Below are positions 3,634-44,498 of a DNA stretch of 48,040 nucleotides, one piece after another. The DNA lies in contig NZ_JANUCT010000021.1 of NCBI RefSeq assembly GCF_024808875.1, positions 1 to 48,040 of the forward strand. The letters run 5' to 3'. The notes beneath the pieces were generated by a model. It worked only from the letters and a program-made list of their open reading frames with translations, was not told the DNA's origin and did no database searches. The stretch comes from Methylohalomonas lacus. Lineage in GTDB: Bacteria > Pseudomonadota > Gammaproteobacteria > Methylohalomonadales > Methylohalomonadaceae. Made by a program: the position numbers and the translations under genes. Position 1 is the stretch's first letter; each line of letters opens with the position of its first letter.

Positions 3634-4730
3634 TTGGATCGGCGTTGCCCTGGTACGAACACTGGGCGGCTGACGCACCGGCGGACTGGGCGGTGGTGAC
3701 GCCTTCGTCGTGCATCAACTACGCTGACCTGCTGGAGCACATCGTCCGGCAAGAGCAGAGCCTCTCTGTCAGGGGCTACCGGCGGGGCGACCGGCTGCTG
3801 CATGCAGACCGGCCCGGCACGGTCGACTGGATCGTGACGCTGCTGGCCGGACTCGGTCTGGGTCTGCAGGTCGTTCTGCCCGATGAGGACTGGCCCGAAG
3901 AACGAATCCCGCTGCATACGGGGTCACTATTCGTGCCGGACACTGCGACTGCCGGCCACACGCCTGCCGGCATCTGGCTGTTTACCTCGGGAACCACCGC
4001 CGTCCCCAAGCCGCGCCTGCGCACGCTGGCGCATCTTCGCGCGGACATTGCGCGGGTGCATGACCGTCTGCCCGCCACGATCCGGTGTAACCGTCCGGCT
4101 AGCCTGTGCCTGTTGCCGCTGTCGCACGGTTTCGGCCTCCTCAACAGCCTGCTGTCGGTGCATGCGTTTGGCGGTACCGCCGTGATAGAGGAGATTGGCC
4201 AGCCGCAGCGCATCGCCGCGGCGCTGCACCGGTACCCCGTGCAGGTACTCTATAGCTGGCCGGCGCACCTGCATAAACTCTCCGATCCGGAATTATGGCA
4301 GCAGGCCGCCGCCCCGTTGCTCTGGTGCGTCAGTTCCTCCCTGCGGCTGACAGCAGAGACGGCGCGGGCATTTGCTGCGGCATCCGGCTGTCCGGTCCGC
4401 CAGCAGTACGGCACTACCGAAACCGGCCCGCTGTGCGTAGACGGTGGCGAGCCCCCGGCTGACGAACCGCATTGCATGGGGACGCCGCTGAACGGGGTCG
4501 AGGTGCGGGTACTGGATGCGGACGGGCGATCCCGGGCTGACGGTCAGGCGGGCGAACTGGCCGTCAGGCTGGCGCCTCACCAGCTGCCGGATCATGAACT
4601 GACGGCGGACGGGTTCTGGCCGACCGGCGATCACGGCTGCCTGGATCGGCATGGCCGTGTGCATGTCCTCGGCCGCTACCGGGCATTTACCGATGAGCGC
4701 CGCGACGACACCTCACATTTCCAGCGCTGA
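3630..4730 (+). CDS. AMP-forming ligase (ANL superfamily) lacking the C-terminal domain
   Basis: A 366-residue adenylate-forming enzyme N-domain. Motif A3 is LFTSGTTAVPKPR (about residue 115), A5 is QQYGTTETGP (about residue 260) and A7 is WPTGDHGCLDRHGRVHVLGRYR (about residue 335). The protein stops about 15 residues later, where ANL enzymes normally continue for roughly 100 residues with the lid domain carrying the A10 lysine. It should bind ATP and an acid but may be impaired or need a partner. The last 18 bases overlap the end of the convergent ATP-grasp gene (4713-4730), so truncation by rearrangement is possible. It is translationally coupled to the hydrolase-ALDH gene, whose carboxylate product is a natural candidate substrate (inference). 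Confidence 0.78.
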   Translation: MIGSALPWYEHWAADAPADWAVVTPSSCINYADLLEHIVRQEQSLSVRGYRRGDRLLHADRPGTVDWIVTLLAGLGLGLQVVLPDEDWPEERIPLHTGSLFVPDTATAGHTPAGIWLFTSGTTAVPKPRLRTLAHLRADIARVHDRLPATIRCNRPASLCLLPLSHGFGLLNSLLSVHAFGGTAVIEEIGQPQRIAAALHRYPVQVLYSWPAHLHKLSDPELWQQAAAPLLWCVSSSLRLTAETARAFAAASGCPVRQQYGTTETGPLCVDGGEPPADEPHCMGTPLNGVEVRVLDADGRSRADGQAGELAVRLAPHQLPDHELTADGFWPTGDHGCLDRHGRVHVLGRYRAFTDERRDDTSHFQR

Positions 4731-5738
4731 ACGGCCGAGTAGTCGATACATCAGTCGCATCCAGCGGTTGCCCGCGTATTCGCAACAGCGTTCAAAAAAG
4801 ACGCGCCTGCGCAGCTGCTGACTGAAATCGAGCGGGCAGGGAACTGATTCAGGGGCCATGCCCGGGAGTGCTTCGAAAGCAGCCCTGATGCTTTCCGAAA
4901 ACAGGTTGTGTGCCGCCAGGTTGCGCGCGCTGTAGGTTTGGCTGTGTTGCATGATGACGGGGTTGGTGTTGATTTCCCAGACCTGGATACGGTCGTCCAG
5001 CAGACTGTAGTCGATACGTCCGTAATCAATACGGGCATCGGCACAGATGCCCTGCAATGTTTCTTCATGCGGATTGCTGCGGATAAAGGCAAGCTGCTCC
5101 CGCGCGCGTTCATCATCGGAGAACGCCGGGTTCTTCAGCATCCATTCATGACCGAATATCAGGTGGCGCGGGATGATGCGACCAGCAACCACGAATGCAG
5201 CGTATTTGCGGTAGAGTCCGGCAGCATCGGCCGTATCGCAGAATTCGGTGACCAGCAGTTGCCGTGCGGGAAGACTGCGGCGTCTGAGCGCAGCGATGGC
5301 CTGCCTGAGTTCCCGCCCGTCATGCAGCAGGCGGGTGCGGCTGCCCTTGTGATCATTTTCCAGGCGAATGAATACGGGAAACCGGAGATCGCTGCAGTCC
5401 ATGTTCGCGCGTCGCACGCGGAATCGGTTCTGCTGCTTGTCATGTAGTTCGGTCAGCAGCGTGTACCGGCAGGCACTTTTATCCGGGTGATTGAGTATCC
5501 GGGCCGAGGGGTATTGTTGCCGAATCAACCGATACAGCTGTCGGGCCACATCGAGGCGTGCCGGCGTGAGCCTTTCTATGTCCGAGAAGATATAGGTGCC
5601 GGCGGCCGGCAGGTTACGATGTGCAAACACCCGTTCGTAGGCAATGATCGTGAAATGCGCCGCCAGCGACTGCCCCCGGTCGGCGAGGTAATTCCGCACC
5701 GTATGCTGATGCGGTTCGCTGACAAAGTAGCATATCAT
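4713..5738 (-). CDS. ATP-grasp family protein, paralogue A
   Basis: A 341-residue protein with the layout of an ATP-grasp ligase: an N-terminal pre-ATP-grasp segment with TYIFSDIERLTPA, a central ATP-binding part (PVFIRLENDHKGSRTRLL, LLVTEFCDT, YRKYAAFVVAGRIIPRHL), and the metal-binding C-terminal strand YGRIDYSLLDDRIQVWEINTNP. The Glu-x-Asn-x-Asn in EINTNP is the usual Mg2+ ligand set. A clear paralogue lies at 38780-39742, on the other side of the polysaccharide locus. It sits downstream of a minus-strand GT2 with a 66-base gap and converges on the AMP-ligase. ATP-grasp enzymes join a carboxylate to an amine or other nucleophile through an acyl phosphate; the substrate here is unknown. Confidence 0.75.
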   Translation of the reverse strand: MICYFVSEPHQHTVRNYLADRGQSLAAHFTIIAYERVFAHRNLPAAGTYIFSDIERLTPARLDVARQLYRLIRQQYPSARILNHPDKSACRYTLLTELHDKQQNRFRVRRANMDCSDLRFPVFIRLENDHKGSRTRLLHDGRELRQAIAALRRRSLPARQLLVTEFCDTADAAGLYRKYAAFVVAGRIIPRHLIFGHEWMLKNPAFSDDERAREQLAFIRSNPHEETLQGICADARIDYGRIDYSLLDDRIQVWEINTNPVIMQHSQTYSARNLAAHNLFSESIRAAFEALPGMAPESVPCPLDFSQQLRRRVFFERCCEYAGNRWMRLMYRLLGRSALEM

Positions 5739-10852: not shown

Positions 10853-12217
10853 ATGTATAATTGCCAGCAACGGGATACGCGCTGGTATCAGCGTTTGCGG
10901 GGCATGACGGTTGGCGATAGCTTGCGTGCCCGTCTGATTCGCGCTGGTTTTGGCAGTGCCGGTCTTCAGGCTGTTAACCGGATATTGTTGTTGATCCTGG
11001 CGATTATATTGGCACGCGTACTGGGTGCGGAAGGTTACGGTATCTATGCCTTTGCATTTGCCATTATGCGTCTGTTGATGGTTGGTGCCGAAGCGGGCAT
11101 GCCGGCGTTATTGATGCGTGAGATAGCCACCAGCCATGGCCGCGAGCAGTGGGGTCTTTTGCGTGGCGCGCTGCGTAGGGCAGGGCAGTTCGTTACATTG
11201 GTAGCCACAGTCATATCGCTGATTGGTCTCGGCATACTTTGGTGGTTGTCCGAGAGGTTTGAGCCAGCAGTTGTTCAGACGATCGGACTCATGCTTTTGG
11301 CGTTACCCGCTGCGGCCATGGTCCGAACCTTGGCGGCAGCTTTACAGGGTCTGCACCGAGTGATCATCGGCCAGTCATTGGACATGCTGTGGCGGCCGCT
11401 TCTGGTACTCTTGTTTGTATCGATAATGTTTCTTATGTGGCCAGAATGGCGCCAGCCACAATCTGCGATGGCAGTCCAGGTGGTTGCACTGTTCCTTGTA
11501 TTGATGCTCGGGGCTCTGCTGCTGTGGCGCATTCTCATGCTGCAGGTCGGTAATGCCCGGCCTGAATTTCGTACTCGAGAGTGGCTGAAGAGTGCGCTGC
11601 CGTTCACGCTGATCGGCGGGGCGGCCATCATCAACAATCACACCGATGTCATCATGCTGGGCTGGCTCCGCAGCGCCGAGGAAGTGGGGATCTACCGAGT
11701 AGCCGTACAGGGGGCAACGCTGGTGGCATTCGGCCTACAAGCGGCCAATGCAGTCATCGCGCCACAATTTGCCCGGCTGCATGCTCGTGGTGATATGGCC
11801 CGTTTACAGAGTCTCGTTACCCAGAGCGCACGGGTTATACTATTGGTCGCCCTACCCGTGACACTCGCATTCATGCTCGCCGGTGGTGCTATAGTCGGCT
11901 GGGTTTTTGGAGACGAGTTTGCTGCTGCACATTTGTCGCTGGCAATACTGGCGCTGGGACAGTTAATAAACGCCGCATTTGGATCGGTAGCTCTGTTGCT
12001 TAACATGACCGGGCATGAAAGCGTATCTGCGCACATTCTCTGGCAGACAGCCGTTCTCAATATCGTTCTCAATGGCCTGCTGATTCCATTCTACGGAATG
12101 AGCGGGGCGGCCGTGGCGACAGCGCTATCACTGGCTCTGTGGAATTTTATGCTATACCGCCAGGTGCGGAACCGGCTTGGCCTGATTTCAACTGCTTTAC
12201 GATTTAAATCCTTATGA
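10853..12217 (+). CDS. wzx: Wzx-type polysaccharide flippase (MOP/PST family)
   Basis: A 454-residue integral membrane protein with about 12-14 hydrophobic segments, for example ILLLILAIILARVL near residue 50 and later VILLVALPVTLAFMLAGGAIVGWVF. The segment LGAEGYGIYAFAFAIM after the first helix is characteristic of O-antigen/teichoic acid flippases. These move undecaprenyl-linked oligosaccharide units across the inner membrane. ATG 10853 is chosen because AAGGAG at 10837-10842 precedes it; an upstream TTG at 10817 has no such signal. Its stop overlaps the start of the next gene (ATGA at 12214-12217). This is the last GC-rich gene before the AT-rich core. Confidence 0.85.
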   Translation: MYNCQQRDTRWYQRLRGMTVGDSLRARLIRAGFGSAGLQAVNRILLLILAIILARVLGAEGYGIYAFAFAIMRLLMVGAEAGMPALLMREIATSHGREQWGLLRGALRRAGQFVTLVATVISLIGLGILWWLSERFEPAVVQTIGLMLLALPAAAMVRTLAAALQGLHRVIIGQSLDMLWRPLLVLLFVSIMFLMWPEWRQPQSAMAVQVVALFLVLMLGALLLWRILMLQVGNARPEFRTREWLKSALPFTLIGGAAIINNHTDVIMLGWLRSAEEVGIYRVAVQGATLVAFGLQAANAVIAPQFARLHARGDMARLQSLVTQSARVILLVALPVTLAFMLAGGAIVGWVFGDEFAAAHLSLAILALGQLINAAFGSVALLLNMTGHESVSAHILWQTAVLNIVLNGLLIPFYGMSGAAVATALSLALWNFMLYRQVRNRLGLISTALRFKSL

Positions 12218-13104
12218 AAAAACCCAATTTCTTCATTCTCGGCGCCCCGAAATGTGGCACGACCTCATTGGCTTACTGGCTATCAAAGCATCCTAATGTT
12301 TTCATTTCACCACACAAGGAGCCACATTATTTTAATGATGATCTAAGATTCCACCAATACTCTTGGCGTGATTTTGAACATTATCTGTCTTTATACGAGG
12401 GTGCAAATAGAAACCATAAGATAGTAGGTGAAGCATCTACATGGTATTTATTATCTCAAACAGCAGTCCAGAATATTGAGGCTGAACTTGGATGTGTACG
12501 TTATATCGTAATGCTGCGCAATCCGGTGGAAATGGCGCCATCCTTGCATGGACAGCTACTGCTCTCTGGCAGAGAGAACGTTGTTGACTTTGAGACGGCT
12601 TGGCACTTACAGGAAAGGCGACGGCAGGGCAAGGCTGTTCCGTGGAATTGTCCTGATCCTGAATGTCTGCAATATAAAAAGGCTTGTAGTCTTGGGGAGC
12701 AACTGACACGTTTATATAAGACAGTTGATAAGTGTCGCGTCTTGCCGGTATTTCTTGAAGATATACAAAAAGATGTGCATGGAGAATGGGGCCGGATTCT
12801 GGATTTCCTCGATTTGCCGATGTGGGCAGATTTGGATTTTAAAACAGAGAATCAAGCCAGACACTGGCAATGGCTCTGGGTTCGTGATATCAAGATTATT
12901 TATGTGCGTATGCTTAGACAGTTAGGGTTGCCATGGTTGCGGATTGGCCTGTTGAAAAATCTGGTTGGTGCCACAATCAAAGAGTCTAGGCGAAAACCAC
13001 TAAGCATAGAATTGCGTCGTGAATTGGAGGCCGAATTTGCGGAAGATATCAATGAGCTAGCCAAGCTGACGAAACGGGATTTGTCACATTGGATAAAGGG
13101 ATAG
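12214..13104 (+). CDS. Sulfotransferase, paralogue 1
   Basis: A 296-residue PAPS-dependent sulfotransferase of the heparan-sulfate-sulfotransferase-like type. The 5'-phosphosulfate-binding loop is FFILGAPKCGTTSLAYWL (residues 6-23) and the 3'-phosphate-binding site is VMLRNPVEMAPSLHGQLL (about residue 100). FLEDIQKDV near residue 185 is also typical. It is translationally coupled to the flippase (ATGA). A close full-length paralogue lies at 17080-17967 in the same orientation, and the similarity continues past the stop codon into non-coding DNA and a uxs remnant. Likely adds sulfate to a sugar residue of the polymer. Confidence 0.85.
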   Translation: MKKPNFFILGAPKCGTTSLAYWLSKHPNVFISPHKEPHYFNDDLRFHQYSWRDFEHYLSLYEGANRNHKIVGEASTWYLLSQTAVQNIEAELGCVRYIVMLRNPVEMAPSLHGQLLLSGRENVVDFETAWHLQERRRQGKAVPWNCPDPECLQYKKACSLGEQLTRLYKTVDKCRVLPVFLEDIQKDVHGEWGRILDFLDLPMWADLDFKTENQARHWQWLWVRDIKIIYVRMLRQLGLPWLRIGLLKNLVGATIKESRRKPLSIELRRELEAEFAEDINELAKLTKRDLSHWIKG

Positions 13105-17079: not shown

Positions 17080-17967
17080 ATGAATAAACCAAACTTCTTT
17101 ATACTCGGCGCCCCGAAATGTGGCACAACCTCATTGGCTTATTGGTTGTCACAGCACCCTAATGTATTTATGTCACCGAATAAGGAGCCACATTATTTTA
17201 GCAATGACTTAAATCACAATATAGAACCTTGGCGCGACTATGAACACTATCTGTCATTATATAAATCGGCAGATTCAAATCACAAGATAATCGGTGAAGC
17301 CTCTACTTGGTATCTGCGCTCAGTGACTGCTGTCAAAAATATAGAGGCTAAGCTTGATAATGTTCGTTACATCGTCATGCTTCGCAATCCGGTGGAAATG
17401 GCGCCATCCTTGCATGGGCAGCTCCTGTTCGTTGGTAGAGAGAATGTTGTTGACTTTGAGACGGCCTGGCACTTACAGGAGAGACGATTACGGGGCGAGG
17501 CTATTCCAGGAAATTGTCCTGATCCAGAGTTTCTTCAATACAGGAAGGCCTGCAGTCTTGGGGAACAGCTGGAAAGATTGTATAAAACGGTAAGCAGGGA
17601 TCGCGTCCTGGTGATCTTTCTTGAAGATATAGAAAATGATGTACATAGAGAATGGCGTCGAATTCTAAAATTTCTTGATTTGCCGATGTGGACAGATTTA
17701 GATTTCAAGGCAGAGAACAGGGCCAAGTACTGGCAATGGCGCTGGATTCGCAACCTCATGATACTATATGTGCGTGTACTTAGACTACTGGGCTTGCCTT
17801 GGTTGCGGACTGGCTTATTGAAATATTTGGTTGGTGTCTCCATCAAATCTGGACGCAAGCCACTGACCTTACAATTGTGTCGTGAATTGGAAGTCGAATT
17901 TGTGCAAGATGTCAATAAGCTAGCTAAGCTGACACAACGGGATTTGTCACACTGGATAAAGGGATAG
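17080..17967 (+). CDS. Sulfotransferase, paralogue 2
   Basis: A 295-residue PAPS-dependent sulfotransferase. The 5'-phosphosulfate loop FFILGAPKCGTTSLAYWL and the 3'-phosphate site VMLRNPVEMAPSLHGQLL are identical to those of paralogue 1 at 12214-13104. Differences cluster at residues about 38-60 (after SPNKEPHYF) and in the C-terminal third, where acceptor specificity could differ. It is followed after 157 bases by the convergent uxs gene, an arrangement mirrored as a fossil behind paralogue 1. The paralogues are in direct orientation 4.9 kb apart, so recombination between them could delete the PhyH-GT2 interval. Confidence 0.85.
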   Translation: MNKPNFFILGAPKCGTTSLAYWLSQHPNVFMSPNKEPHYFSNDLNHNIEPWRDYEHYLSLYKSADSNHKIIGEASTWYLRSVTAVKNIEAKLDNVRYIVMLRNPVEMAPSLHGQLLFVGRENVVDFETAWHLQERRLRGEAIPGNCPDPEFLQYRKACSLGEQLERLYKTVSRDRVLVIFLEDIENDVHREWRRILKFLDLPMWTDLDFKAENRAKYWQWRWIRNLMILYVRVLRLLGLPWLRTGLLKYLVGVSIKSGRKPLTLQLCRELEVEFVQDVNKLAKLTQRDLSHWIKG

Positions 17968-38779: not shown

Positions 38780-39742
38780 TCAGGGCACCCAGCCCGAGCG
38801 ACGGAAGAACCAGTCCTTTCTGCGCTGCTTTCTGAATACCCAGTCATCGAGCTTTGCGACCGAGCCTTTGTTTGAGTTCATATCTTTCAGTGCTGCGAGT
38901 AGCTTGTTGTAGAATAATTTATCAGACTGCAACCGGCTCTTATAGCGGGGCGAGCTGATAATACCAATATGAGGATTGGTGTTGATTTCGTAAATTTGTA
39001 CTTTTCCATCAATGATCGTGTAATCGGCTCTGCCATACTCGATATTGCTGAAGGAGAACGCCTGCATTAATTCTTCTGCATTTGGTGTTGTCTGTATTCT
39101 GTCGTATTCCGCTTTAATCGTATTATCATTGGCAAGGCCGACTGTGCCATATTTAGCAGACCATTTATCTTCAAGTACGCCGGCAGTTTCCATAATCCTG
39201 TCGCCGCAGCGGAAGGCCGCAAATTTATAATAGAGTCCACGTATATCTGGCTCAGCGCAATATTCAACGATAATGAGTTCTCGCAAGGGGTAGCCATCCG
39301 CGACAGCCGACTCGATGGCTTGTTCGAGTTCCTGTTTGTTATTGATTAATTCGCCCGTCAAAATACCTCGATGCGCACGATTTGTACGCAGGAATACCGG
39401 GTAGCGATCCGGCTGCTCGCTGTCTCCGGCATGCCAGGCATTAAAGCGATTGAAACCGGCTTTATGGAGCTGTCTTAAAAGTAGATAGCGATCGCCTATG
39501 CGCGCTGGGTTGTTGTAAACGGTCTGGCCATTTTCTTTGAGTTTATTATAAATCCGACTTGCCAGCTCGAGTTCCCAGAAATCGAGTCGATCAAGATCCG
39601 TGAATATCCATGTGGCTGGGGGAAGCCGGCGCTGACGAAGCAGCCGATCGTAGCTCCAGATACTCACGGGGAGTCCGTCGGCTTCCTGTAACAGGCGCTG
39701 ATGCGTTCTCTTGTGGGAGCGGGTGGTTATGAAAACGATCAT
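38780..39742 (-). CDS. ATP-grasp family protein, paralogue B
   Basis: A 320-residue paralogue of 4713-5738. Shared landmarks in order: ATWIFTDLDRLDFWELELAS, PVFLRTNRAHRGILTG, LIIVEYCAEPDIRGLYYKFA, and YGRADYTIIDGKVQIYEINT followed by NPHIG. The Glu-x-Asn-x-Asn metal site is intact. It is divergently transcribed from the peptide ORF and HExxH gene, with TATAAT on the minus strand only 6 bases before the ATG (39754-39749). Its partner status with the peptide system is inference from adjacency; an amide-forming or peptide-modifying reaction is plausible but unproven. Confidence 0.75.
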   Translation of the reverse strand: MIVFITTRSHKRTHQRLLQEADGLPVSIWSYDRLLRQRRLPPATWIFTDLDRLDFWELELASRIYNKLKENGQTVYNNPARIGDRYLLLRQLHKAGFNRFNAWHAGDSEQPDRYPVFLRTNRAHRGILTGELINNKQELEQAIESAVADGYPLRELIIVEYCAEPDIRGLYYKFAAFRCGDRIMETAGVLEDKWSAKYGTVGLANDNTIKAEYDRIQTTPNAEELMQAFSFSNIEYGRADYTIIDGKVQIYEINTNPHIGIISSPRYKSRLQSDKLFYNKLLAALKDMNSNKGSVAKLDDWVFRKQRRKDWFFRRSGWVP

Positions 39743-39888
39743 TTATTTATTATAATCAATAAGTTATATCTTTAGTCGAGAATGATTGAACTACTTGACC
39801 GATGAAATAGAACAGTTACCATTTAGGGCGCAGAATCAATAAGATGTAATTGATCGTGCATACAAATCAACTGCCACGGGGATTAATA

Positions 39889-39999
39889 ATGCAACCAATA
39901 TCGCTTAATGCAAAAAACTTGCTCGGCTTTCGGCTGATTCATGCTAGCAAAGCAAATTCTGTGATTGGAAGTAAAATAGGTATGCCCAAGAATGTCTGA
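39889..39999 (+). CDS. Candidate 36-residue precursor peptide
   Basis: ATG 39889 follows GGGG (39878-39881) at a 7-base spacing and opens a 36-codon frame ending in TGA at 39997-39999. The peptide begins MQPISLNAKN and ends IGMPKNV. It has four Lys (9, 21, 29, 34), Arg15, His18, four Asn (7, 10, 23, 35) and no acidic residue or Cys, so it is clearly cationic. It has its own possible promoter, a terminator 66 bases downstream, and lies between an ATP-grasp gene and a HExxH peptide-hydroxylase gene. That is the usual geometry of a RiPP precursor, but coding status is inferred from context. Confidence 0.5.
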   Translation: MQPISLNAKNLLGFRLIHASKANSVIGSKIGMPKNV

Positions 40000-40065
40000 T
40001 AATAGGCCTTTTGGTATATCTGTCTTGCTGTGATTCCGTCAAAACAGATGCCAATTGCTGTTAAT

Positions 40066-40099
40066 GGGCCGGCCCGCTTATAAAGGACCGGCCTTTTTT
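40066..40099 (+). terminator. Rho-independent terminator after the peptide ORF
   Basis: GGCCGG (40067-40072) pairs with CCGGCC (40088-40093) and is followed by six T residues (40094-40099). It sits between the peptide ORF and the HExxH gene, where partial read-through would give much more peptide message than enzyme message. Confidence 0.7.
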
Positions 40100-40134
40100 A
40101 TTTATTTTTCTAAATTCGCATTCCTAATGTCACG

Positions 40135-41115
40135 ATGTCTACCACATTCAGCTTTATTCCAACGGGTAAACAGGGAATACACTGCGATGCAGCCATGCGC
40201 CGCGGGCTCGCCGACAGCCTGGATTATATTGTCGAGCAGAGCCGCGGCCAGGTGGACTTTGATGCGCCGGCGCTTCAGCGGCTTATAGATGGGCTTCGCG
40301 CAGGCGATTGGTATCCGGCGTCCACCTTCGGTATTTATTATGATCTCGTTCCGGCACTGACAGTCGGCGATCGCGAAACAGCCGAAGCGCTTTTTGGAGA
40401 ACTTGCGTCAGAGCATCCCCTGACGGAATCCTGTCGTGTGCTCGGCCTCGATGATCCGGCACTGGGTCATGTATCCCGCTACAAGCGCCTGCTGGATACT
40501 GACACAAGACAGTCCTTCAGTTTTCAGCCGCCCGCCCCGGAGCTTACGCGGGCTTTTGCGGACCGGTTACAGCACGCCCGCGAGGTTATCCGGCAGGTGC
40601 TACCGGATCTGGCCGCGGAACAGGAAGCCATTCTGCGGGAGATTATCCTGGCGGTTGGTGATACCGATTCGGATTACACGTTTGATGGTGGTTCTTCCTA
40701 CATGCTCTGGGGCGCGCTGTTTCTGAATGCCGAGTCACATACTTCCGACGTGGCCATGATCGATGTGCTGGCCCACGAGGCCAGTCACAGCCTGTTGTTC
40801 GGCTGCTGCACGGAGGAGCCCCTGGTTCTCAACGCCGATGACGAGCTGTTTACCTCGCCCCTGCGGCGCGATCCGCGACCGATGGATGGCATTTATCACG
40901 CGGCCTTTGTCTCTGCCCGTATGCACTGGGCCATGTCGCGGCTGCTGGAAAGTGATTTTCCCGATTCGGCGCAGCTCGCCGAGGCCGAATCCCGGCGCGA
41001 TGCAAGCAAGCAGGGCTTTGAAGCGGGCTATTCGGTCGTCGCCGAGCATGCCGACCTGACCCCGACCGGGCGGTCCATCATGCAGAAAGCCCGGGAATAC
41101 ATGGATAGTGTCTAG
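40135..41115 (+). CDS. HExxH-type putative 2-oxoglutarate-dependent peptide beta-hydroxylase
   Basis: A 326-residue protein. Its conserved part is VLAHEASHSLLFG (HExxH at residues 214-218) followed by EEPLVLNADDELFTSPLRRD, then PRPMDGIYHAAFVSARM with a third His at residue 255. This combination matches the HExxH domain found with peptide-modification systems (TIGR04267-like), several members of which have been reported as 2-oxoglutarate-dependent peptide beta-hydroxylases rather than proteases. The N-terminal 200 residues are mostly helical and unannotated. The ATG has no Shine-Dalgarno. The peptide ORF 136 bases upstream is the natural candidate substrate. Confidence 0.7.
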   Translation: MSTTFSFIPTGKQGIHCDAAMRRGLADSLDYIVEQSRGQVDFDAPALQRLIDGLRAGDWYPASTFGIYYDLVPALTVGDRETAEALFGELASEHPLTESCRVLGLDDPALGHVSRYKRLLDTDTRQSFSFQPPAPELTRAFADRLQHAREVIRQVLPDLAAEQEAILREIILAVGDTDSDYTFDGGSSYMLWGALFLNAESHTSDVAMIDVLAHEASHSLLFGCCTEEPLVLNADDELFTSPLRRDPRPMDGIYHAAFVSARMHWAMSRLLESDFPDSAQLAEAESRRDASKQGFEAGYSVVAEHADLTPTGRSIMQKAREYMDSV

Positions 41116-42794: not shown

Positions 42795-43475
42795 TTAAAC
42801 AACATTATTAATAATGGCGCCGATTCTTGTTAGTTTTTCGCCGCTGAATAACTCGGAATGCTTGCAATCTATTATGTGGTAATTTGCGTTTCGGAATGCA
42901 TAAGAGAATACTCCCCTTTCCATCAAGTGAGCTCTAGCTGAAGACAAAATGATTTCTGTTGGGCAGGGAGAAGATGTACATAGAAAAGTTGTGGCCCTAA
43001 GCTTTAACAGCATGCGATATCTGAAAGATGGTTCGCACCTGGTTAGCCAATTTCTGGATTTGTAGATTCTCAGTGAATCGTATGCATATCTATGAATCAT
43101 ACTAATAAATAGTCTTGGTAGTTGTTTGTGTCGCATAAAGGGTAAATTCACAGGTGGATCTATAAGTACAAGTTTATTTGGCTCAAGCCCTTGATTCTTT
43201 AAAGAAAAAGCCAGTTCAGTGGCCAGTATGCTACCGGCGCAGGAACTTATCAGGACTTGGTTCGGTTGTAGTGTTTTTTTGGGGAATTCATTTTGTATCC
43301 AGTTAGACAGGCTTTTAAGAGTGGGGGCCCTTAAAAGACCAAGTTCTTTTGTGCTCTCTGCCAGTTCTATAGATTCTGTCGGACTTCTATCAGGTAGGAC
43401 TTGCCTGAGTTTTCTGGACAGCCCAAGAGTCCCACTCAAAGCGGGAATTATAAGAATAGGATTATGCATTTTCAT
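42795..43475 (-). CDS. Alpha/beta-hydrolase thioesterase with Cys nucleophile
   Basis: A 226-residue protein of the NRPS/PKS type II thioesterase kind: ILIIPALSGTLGLSRKLRQV at the N-terminus (oxyanion region), a nucleophile elbow VLISSCAGSILATELAFSL in which the usual Ser of GxSxG is Cys79, an Asp in LVLIDPPVN (Asp106) and a His in DCKHSELF (His206). The triad would be Cys-Asp-His. It converges on manC and diverges from the P450 with overlapping starts. In context it would release or proofread substrates on the adjacent carrier protein. AT-rich relative to manC. Confidence 0.7.
   Translation of the reverse strand: MKMHNPILIIPALSGTLGLSRKLRQVLPDRSPTESIELAESTKELGLLRAPTLKSLSNWIQNEFPKKTLQPNQVLISSCAGSILATELAFSLKNQGLEPNKLVLIDPPVNLPFMRHKQLPRLFISMIHRYAYDSLRIYKSRNWLTRCEPSFRYRMLLKLRATTFLCTSSPCPTEIILSSARAHLMERGVFSYAFRNANYHIIDCKHSELFSGEKLTRIGAIINNVV
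43464..43469. promoter_or_regulatory. Palindromic double start codon ATGCAT
   Basis: The same ATGCAT supplies the ATG of the plus-strand P450 gene (43464-43466) and an in-frame ATG of the minus-strand thioesterase gene (43469-43467; the longer minus-strand start is at 43475). The two genes therefore touch or overlap at their 5' ends, so each promoter must lie inside the other gene. Confidence 0.6.
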
Positions 43476-44498
43476 TCAGTGAAAAATAAGATTCATAAAT
43501 TACTTTTAAGTAATTATGGCATGGATGAGATTGGCGGATTATCTGATCCCTACATAAGTGTTGAATCAAGGGGTGTAACCTCATTTGTGGTCATCGACCC
43601 TGAGCCGGCTAAAGAAATACTTATATCAGATTCCTTCCAAGAATATAAATATTCAAATATTTTTGGTCAAATACTGGCTTCATTGAAATCCGATAGCCAG
43701 GGTTTGATCAGATTTTTCAGTAATTCACCTCTGGAACAGGGTGCTCGTACTGAGACACATGATGTCTTAAGACATGAATATAAAAAAATTTATGACAGGG
43801 TCCTGAGTTATGAGCCTGAGCACCCTGAGATTTCTTCGAAAAGGATATTCACAAAGGACTATGTGGATCTTTATATGGATTCATATTTTAGAAGAGCCTT
43901 TAGAGACTTGTTGGGATCGGATGCCTGTTATGAAGAAATAACTGCATCCAAGGGTATAGATGTTTTTGATATTTTTTCCAATCCTTCAAGAATTCTCTCT
44001 GTCAGCAAGGAGCTTGACGGGTTTTATGAACAATATCCTCATGATGATTTATCCCTGGATAAAGAGATCAGGGAGAATCCCGAAGCTTTTCTGACCATGC
44101 TTCTTATGGGCCGGGATCCTTTGACTGTTACCATGGCATGTTGGCTTAACAGCATTTTGTCAGGTGAGAATCCTGATTCAAAAGATTTTCGAGCGGTGTC
44201 GGCTACTAATTTTATACCCAGAATCTGTACCAGGGATACGGTGATTGGCGGTATCAATTTTAAAGAGGGACAGTTAGCTTACCTTCTGCTGGCGGGAGCC
44301 AACAGAAGTGAGAAGTTGAAAAGCAGAATAGGTCTGGCTTTTGGTTATGGTGCACATTTCTGTTTGGGGTATCAATTTGCCGACAAAATTTTCAGAAAGT
44401 TCAAGGCTGACTTCGATTATAGCCATACTGATATGATGCTGCCGTCTAAAAGGGTTATCAGGAATGCCTTTTCTGAATTTGTTAAGGAGGATTTGTGA
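43464..44498 (+). CDS. Short cytochrome P450-like protein
   Basis: A 344-residue P450. The haem-binding loop is intact: LAFGYGAHFCLGYQFADKI with Cys300 as the expected thiolate ligand. TRDTVIGGINFKEGQLAYLL and AGANRSEKLK match the K'-to-meander region of bacterial P450s. The I-helix is unusual (LLMGRDPLTVTMACWLNSIL instead of AGxxTT), no clear ExxR is seen before FIPRICTRDT, and the part before the haem loop is short. ATG 43464 is chosen; the open frame extends to 43401. The ACP start overlaps the stop (GTGA at 44495-44498). It probably oxidises an acyl or aminoacyl group held on that ACP. Confidence 0.75.
   Translation: MHFHSVKNKIHKLLLSNYGMDEIGGLSDPYISVESRGVTSFVVIDPEPAKEILISDSFQEYKYSNIFGQILASLKSDSQGLIRFFSNSPLEQGARTETHDVLRHEYKKIYDRVLSYEPEHPEISSKRIFTKDYVDLYMDSYFRRAFRDLLGSDACYEEITASKGIDVFDIFSNPSRILSVSKELDGFYEQYPHDDLSLDKEIRENPEAFLTMLLMGRDPLTVTMACWLNSILSGENPDSKDFRAVSATNFIPRICTRDTVIGGINFKEGQLAYLLLAGANRSEKLKSRIGLAFGYGAHFCLGYQFADKIFRKFKADFDYSHTDMMLPSKRVIRNAFSEFVKEDL

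Follow-up and report, generated by a model that had tools for sequence, protein, structure and literature searches.

A Gly-x-Lys-x-Gly peptide encoded beside an HExxH hydroxylase and a divergent ATP-grasp ligase in Methylohalomonas lacus: a probable cassette for a modified ribosomal peptide

The window analysed here is a stretch of 48,040 nucleotides from Methylohalomonas lacus (contig NZ_JANUCT010000021.1, positions 1 to 48,040). It carries three neighbouring genes that very probably form a cassette for a ribosomally synthesized and post-translationally modified peptide (RiPP): a small open reading frame (ORF) for a 36-residue peptide, an HExxH hydroxylase gene next to it and an ATP-grasp gene that diverges from it. 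On either side of the cassette lie a galU-like and a manC-like gene, at the margin of a polysaccharide cluster. Its features, with the evidence for each in brackets, are as follows.

38780–39742, minus strand: predicted ATP-grasp ligase, 320 residues, divergent from the precursor (fold; homologues in 42 of 64 HExxH loci)
39743–39888, no strand: AT-rich spacer between the divergent ligase and precursor genes (sequence)
39889–39999, plus strand: predicted precursor peptide, leader and short core, 36 residues (translation, family profile, frame constraint)
39889–39936, plus strand: leader-like part, MQPISLNAKNLLGFRL (leader column counts over 59 relatives)
39967–39981, plus strand: core motif GSKIG, the sole G-x-K-x-G unit of the window peptide (core Lys/Gly statistics)
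40066–40099, plus strand: GC hairpin followed by T6 (hairpin scan, −16.5 kcal/mol, z = −1.6)
40135–41115, plus strand: predicted aKG-HExxH-type peptide beta-hydroxylase, 326 residues (TIGR04267 score of 104.9 bits, cut-off 40)
40774–40788, plus strand: HEASH metal motif, residues 214–218 (H214, E215 and H218 invariant)
40855–40899, plus strand: SPLRRDPRPMDGIYH, residues 241–255 (R244, R248, D251, G252, Y254 and H255 invariant)

The ORF at 39889–39999 encodes MQPISLNAKNLLGFRLIHASKANSVIGSKIGMPKNV, and its ATG is preceded by CGGGGATTAATA. The peptide has four Asn, one His and no Cys, as an earlier note on this DNA had counted, and it contains neither Asp nor Glu. The GC content is 0.37 across 39743–40134, and the part between the two divergent genes (39743–39888) is likely to be a shared promoter region of ligase and precursor. 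The same note had suggested a promoter and a terminator: hexamer matches do exist for the former but are weak (four seen against 1.8 expected by chance), and the latter is found between the peptide and the next gene as the hairpin at 40066–40099, which probably attenuates transcription from the precursor into the enzyme gene. Comparable hairpins occur in 13 of 58 other precursor-to-HExxH gaps. The scan for promoters and terminators does not list this hairpin, probably because its loop exceeds the limit of that scan; it was picked up by the separate hairpin scan.

The window peptide matches no Pfam or NCBIfam family, six other precursors likewise have no NCBIfam match, and searching 55 relatives directly for the peptide gave weak, unrelated matches only. 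The family was found through the hydroxylase loci. In one genome (G034) the window hydroxylase has two HExxH homologues, with 46% and 35% identity across the aligned part, and each of these has a small ORF upstream with KLLG and GAKIG or GGKIG. Scanning species genomes with three hydroxylases gave 61 loci, which together with the window and the two G034 loci make up a set of 64. Across 52 of these there are 60 precursor ORFs of 33–91 residues, carried by Pseudomonadota, Verrucomicrobiota and Planctomycetota, and the peptide ORF is conserved near other HExxH and ATP-grasp genes. Cultured carriers include Parvibaculum sedimenti and Thioalkalivibrio sp. ALJT, and some loci, L015 and L023 among them, have precursors rich in repeats. 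Their leaders follow the consensus (K)-L-D-x-S-K-L-L/Y/F-G-F-K/R-L/I (KLDPSKLLGFKL, from 59 precursors with the window excluded), in which the Gly never varies and three further positions keep their Asp, Leu and Phe in 54–55 of the 59. When the window peptide is left out of a full-length profile, its ORF still comes out on top of all 695 ORFs of the window, with an E-value of 9.5e-9 (1.5 for the runner-up), which is more than chance would give. In leave-one-locus-out scoring the window peptide reaches 31.6 bits, within the family range and tenth lowest of the 60, so by its sequence it is a divergent but ordinary family member.

Substitutions in the family respect the reading frame. Pooled over 12 precursor pairs, the ratio of nonsynonymous to synonymous differences (pN/pS) is 0.43 in the true frame and rises to 1.19 and 1.38 when the frame is shifted; the alignments were made at the protein level, and this tilts the comparison somewhat towards the true frame. 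The 60 precursors show the genetic hallmarks of a RiPP, namely a ribosomal precursor, a conserved leader, a variable core and adjoining modifying enzymes, and this peptide family with Gly-x-Lys-x-Gly cores is widespread and apparently new to description. The proposal that the peptide is the substrate of its neighbours gains genetic support from the conservation of the family beside homologous enzymes and from the frame constraint; neither of the two outcomes that the earlier note had named as refuting it was seen. Two variants of the arrangement may be mentioned. A single HExxH locus of Histidinibacterium lentulum (L044) holds six precursor ORFs and two ATP-grasp genes, a natural combinatorial set, and two other loci (L061 and L073) have very short precursors with the leader LDAxKLLGN and GQKPVGRKPK-like cores, adjoining a window-type ATP-grasp gene.

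The assignment of the HExxH protein to a peptide-hydroxylase family, also made in the earlier note, is borne out by its TIGR04267 score and by its fold. The AlphaFold model has a predicted local distance difference test (pLDDT) score of 96, and a Foldseek search against the PDB returns 8s5f, the HExxH domain of ChlBH (E = 3.5e-10), and 22ob, SjiH (E = 3.9e-8), with no other entry below 0.001. The HEASH motif and the SPxRxDPRPxDGxxH region, both noticed in the same note, lie at residues 214–218 and 241–255, and H214, E215, H218, R244, R248, P249, D251, G252, Y254 and H255 are invariant in 55 hydroxylase sequences including that of the window. H255 aligns to the His of the ChlH motif GLLHA in the profile alignment and is a candidate third metal ligand; R244 and R248 are candidate contacts to 2-oxoglutarate. 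By analogy with known enzymes, the window hydroxylase would carry out Fe(II)- and 2-oxoglutarate-dependent peptide hydroxylation. The 2-oxoglutarate dependence of this class was established recently, and each new partner system has given a new target residue. Characterized TIGR04267 members hydroxylate Asp, His, Phe, Gln and Pro (PMC12636437, PMC13060819). In a plasmid collection we found three distant HExxH proteins only (on NZ_CP147735.1, on AP028979.1 from Xenorhabdus and on NZ_CP068441.1 from Pantoea), which are 28–30% identical over the C-terminal half.

The cores point to the residue that may be modified. Gly accounts for 17% and Lys for 14.5% of core residues (32% together), and Gly stands at −2 or +2 of 302 of the 373 core Lys residues, against a mean of 117 (standard deviation 9) in shuffled cores. 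Asn (2.1%) and His (0.5%), which the earlier note had put forward as hydroxylation sites, are not conserved in the family cores and were dropped; because Lys flanked by Gly is conserved and they are not, the Lys of G-x-K-x-G is the natural candidate and, on this pattern, the likeliest modified residue. Naming the Lys of K-x-G as the exact residue is a guess that we consider evenly balanced between right and wrong. Among more distant relatives of the hydroxylase, peptides with a different leader often still contain K-x-G (L058, L065 and L068), which suggests that retention of K-x-G tracks the hydroxylase. Amylibacter kogurei (L064/L090) has an HExxH relative and a leader-bearing precursor with the repeat ELGRLFSKRGxVE in a genome that has no window-type ATP-grasp; the core motif differs there, where the ligase is absent.

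Regular repeats bounded by Gly could also serve a different reaction, in which the HExxH enzyme mainly cleaves the backbone, oxidizing the α-carbon of Gly (or of a neighbour) and cutting the core into short amidated peptides. PflC and PosC, of the same family, combine Gln hydroxylation with oxidative backbone cleavage and remove ARMD in this way (PMC12636437), and no protease family is conserved near the cassette. Many cores, however, are continuous GxKxGxKxG runs with no clear spacer-separated units, and the β-carbon is the usual position of hydroxylation in known members (PMC13060819); cleavage as the main activity is improbable.

The window ATP-grasp protein reaches no Pfam or NCBIfam cut-off, its best matches being sub-threshold ones to D-Ala-D-Ala ligases (E = 0.02 or worse). 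Neither it nor its homologues meet the cut-offs of PF08443 (the Pfam RimK family) and TIGR00768. Its AlphaFold model (pLDDT 93) is closest among solved folds to RimK, LysX and ArgX (Z ≃ 17 over ∼257 residues, with 12–18% identity), followed by D-Ala-D-Ala ligase (Z ≃ 15) and the graspetide ligase PsnB (Z = 13.6). R238, D240, E252 and N254 are invariant across 42 ATP-grasp sequences, and in most cases the gene lies immediately before the precursor and points away from it, as in the window; sometimes it lies downstream. The activity of the protein would follow that of known enzymes: in RimK, LysX, D-Ala-D-Ala ligases and graspetide ligases a carboxylate is phosphorylated and is then attacked by an amine (by a hydroxyl in some graspetides). 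The window peptide offers amines (Lys and the N-terminus), and its sole carboxylate is the C-terminus, so that either a free acid would be joined to Lys or an amine to the C-terminus.

The fold match to PsnB raises the question of a graspetide, in which the ATP-grasp enzyme would close a Lys-to-Asp/Glu isopeptide or ester ring and the oxygenase would decorate it. There is a precedent in corallotide, where an ATP-grasp enzyme and a 2-oxoglutarate oxygenase act on KxxxD repeats and the cross-linked Lys is hydroxylated (PMC13097080), and 56 of the 60 cores hold at least one Asp or Glu. Against this, the window core and three others have none, Asp and Glu together make up 5.6% of core residues compared with the 14.5% of Lys, and no NCBIfam graspetide ligase model matches the window ATP-grasp. 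We hold a graspetide system to be decidedly improbable; in the window peptide a side-chain ring of this type is impossible, as it has no Asp or Glu acceptor.

An ATP-grasp partner is nearly always present. Over the 64 loci, 42 have the window type and 17 have a relative of cyanophycin synthetase (CphA-like), none has both and five have neither, two of these five being cut by contig ends. The earlier suggestion of a second modifying enzyme has genetic support from these loci, a much stronger link than could have been known from one locus. The CphA-like partner is ∼620 residues long and matches the cyanophycin synthetase models NF010623/TIGR02068 with E-values down to 1.5e-75. It covers profile positions 117–573 of 871, lacks most of the second (Mur-type) ligase domain and stays far below the cut-off for full-length CphA1 with its G and M domains (254.9 bits against 877, in a match over positions 122–572). 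In L018, L009 and L089 its gene immediately precedes precursor and hydroxylase in the same orientation. Not every CphA-like assignment is complete: those in L007 and L010 are limited by short loci, and that in L045 is weak. On the hydroxylase tree the partner state needs eight changes with all groups taken together, and well-supported branches force at least three partner changes for each ligase group. The tree indicates that precursor and hydroxylase kept together through changes of ligase partner, and because the ligase types were repeatedly replaced in this way, the ATP-grasp step would belong to the pathway.

Searches in the reverse direction agree with this linkage. Starting from the ATP-grasp protein, all three strong matches outside the window genome among 274 genomes of the class (G034, G123 and G204) adjoin an HExxH gene, as do three of four among 398 genomes of the phylum. 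A window-type ATP-grasp with no HExxH gene nearby was seen in one 6.2 Mb genome (L093 in G319). Starting from the hydroxylase, the 398 phylum genomes yield seven other genomes: three with a window-type ligase, one with a CphA-like ligase and a precursor between (L089), one with a precursor and no ligase, and two distant ones with neither. Both genes are rare, occurring in ∼1–2% of genomes. The window itself has a further member of the ligase family.

4713–5738, minus strand: second ATP-grasp of the window family (32% identical to the first; 33 kb away)

This second gene sits between an acyl-CoA-ligase-like gene and a glycosyltransferase gene, with no HExxH gene and no precursor-like ORF near it, and its product could act on the cassette peptide or on something else. 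Its position, together with that of the cassette between the galU- and manC-like genes at the cluster edge, would suit an arrangement of chance neighbours, the ATP-grasp belonging to the polysaccharide genes and the small ORF being untranslated. The trio recurs in unrelated surroundings in dozens of species, however, the constraint on the peptide family is frame-specific and the reverse search from the ATP-grasp returns to HExxH genes, so we give chance very little credence.

For the ligase step, the other substrate on offer is the C-terminus. The ATP-grasp enzyme might add one or more amino acids there, either to the peptide's own terminal carboxylate or to a new C-terminus released by oxidative cleavage, with Lys serving the hydroxylase only; this alternative concerns the ligase step alone. 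RimK (on S6) and LysX, whose folds with that of ArgX are the closest, join amino acids to chain carboxylates. The other partner is a relative of cyanophycin synthetase, the G domain of which also joins amino acids to chain carboxylates (PMC9262961). On the other side, the C-terminal residues differ widely among the 60 precursors and the Lys is conserved through all the repeats. Ligation at the C-terminus is a serious candidate that we nevertheless think unlikely.

We therefore favour a three-gene RiPP cassette in which both enzymes act on the peptide, and hold this with considerable confidence; the residue-level chemistry is graded separately from it. What is grounded in sequence is the precursor family, the frame constraint, the enzyme families and folds, and the near-obligate, mutually exclusive ATP-grasp partners. 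The 36-residue peptide would be the precursor, with a leader of the type LDxSKLLGFK(I/L) and a core of the G-x-K-x-G type. The leader would be bound by the HExxH enzyme, which would hydroxylate the core with Fe(II), 2-oxoglutarate and O2, most probably at the β-carbon of the K-x-G Lys. On the same peptide the ATP-grasp enzyme would form an amide at the expense of ATP. The likeliest case is that a free amino acid, or some other small carboxylic acid, becomes attached to the Lys side chain; the next is that the C-terminal carboxylate is extended or capped, as happens with RimK and cyanophycin synthetase. Lys is slightly favoured over the C-terminus as the ligation site because it is conserved in the core while the C-termini vary. 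This is the least certain part, and acylation of Lys is a guess with somewhat less than an even chance of being right. Taken together as a new RiPP class, with β-hydroxylysine formed by an HExxH enzyme in G-x-K-x-G and the same lysines acylated by an ATP-grasp enzyme that was recruited independently from at least two families, including cyanophycin synthetase, the proposal is tentative and more probably wrong than right in some part; if true, a ribosomal peptide would be decorated along its length.

Several observations weigh against the favoured cassette, or against parts of it. In the window leader, N stands in place of both a D and a K at two of the best-conserved positions, and with these two departures, its shortness and its single G-x-K-x-G unit the window peptide could be a less efficient or drifting copy. 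The window hydroxylase has no relative closer than 52% identity, and since the window peptide has no close relative either, the pN/pS constraint speaks for the family and not for this peptide itself. Three more distant HExxH relatives (L059, L064 and L066) have no window-type ATP-grasp, linked or unlinked, in their genomes. The stand-alone ATP-grasps, at 4713–5738 and in G319, mean that the ligase family is not confined to the cassette. Finally, RimK, LysX and cyanophycin synthetase activate a chain carboxylate, which by analogy argues for the C-terminus rather than Lys.

No third enzyme family is common to the loci, only the HExxH protein and the two ATP-grasps being widely shared, and the genes next to the cassette include no conserved transporter or protease; such genes may lie elsewhere in the genome. 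A weakly thioesterase-like gene (42795–43475, minus strand) and a short P450-like gene (43401–44498, plus strand) overlap just after the manC-like gene. They are not part of the cassette; the pair is AT-rich (GC ∼0.40 against 0.6 in its surroundings) and looks foreign. Within the polysaccharide cluster, two near-duplicate sulfotransferase-like genes (12214–13104 and 17080–17967) flank an AT-rich stretch.

ChlBH (8s5f), BpmH, PflC/PosC and PesO belong to the same profile family as the window hydroxylase (TIGR04267, IPR026337) and have a small precursor alongside, and ChlBH has the same fold. The window hydroxylase keeps the HExxH motif and the RP-x-x-G-x-x-H region of TIGR04267 members (PMC12636437, PMC13060819). 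The known partners of these enzymes are radical SAM, MNIO, nitroreductase or asparagine-synthetase-like proteins, whereas here the hydroxylase stands with an ATP-grasp and a Gly-Lys repeat precursor. In the literature found, no TIGR04267 member is reported with either of these, and neither the precursor motif nor the HExxH/ATP-grasp pairing is described, although absence there does not prove absence elsewhere. A sequence similarity network of the HExxH family is already published, and the Gly-Lys/ATP-grasp cluster may be present in it, unremarked (PMC12636437). What appears to be new is the precursor family, which has no Pfam or NCBIfam model among those searched, and an ATP-grasp family that falls below all cut-offs.

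Among known systems, corallotide (graspetide group 15, CorA/B/C/D) comes nearest as a working analogue; it has a repeated Lys motif, an ATP-grasp and a 2-oxoglutarate oxygenase on one precursor; its ATP-grasp joins Lys to Asp in five KxxxD repeats and the oxygenase hydroxylates that Lys (PMC13097080). It differs in having a canonical 2-oxoglutarate oxygenase (PF13640) instead of an HExxH enzyme, a TIGR04187 ligase and an Asp acceptor in KxxxD, whereas the window peptide is non-acidic. Other graspetides, microviridin and the product of PsnB among them, likewise pair an ATP-grasp ligase with a ribosomal precursor, but the window ligase falls outside their models and the window peptide has no Asp/Glu donor or acceptor motif; a survey of graspetide loci makes no mention of HExxH (PMC8939145). 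RimK, LysX and ArgX resemble the window ATP-grasp in fold, with the low identity and unmet PF08443 cut-off given above. To our knowledge, they are not associated with RiPP precursors. CphA1, at ∼870 residues, has two ligase domains, whereas the shorter CphA-like partner is encoded with a ribosomal precursor and an HExxH enzyme. Its exchange with the window-type ligase amounts to a natural swap experiment, which predicts equivalent chemistry by both ligases, and the 36-residue window peptide, with its one G-x-K-x-G unit, offers a convenient minimal substrate.
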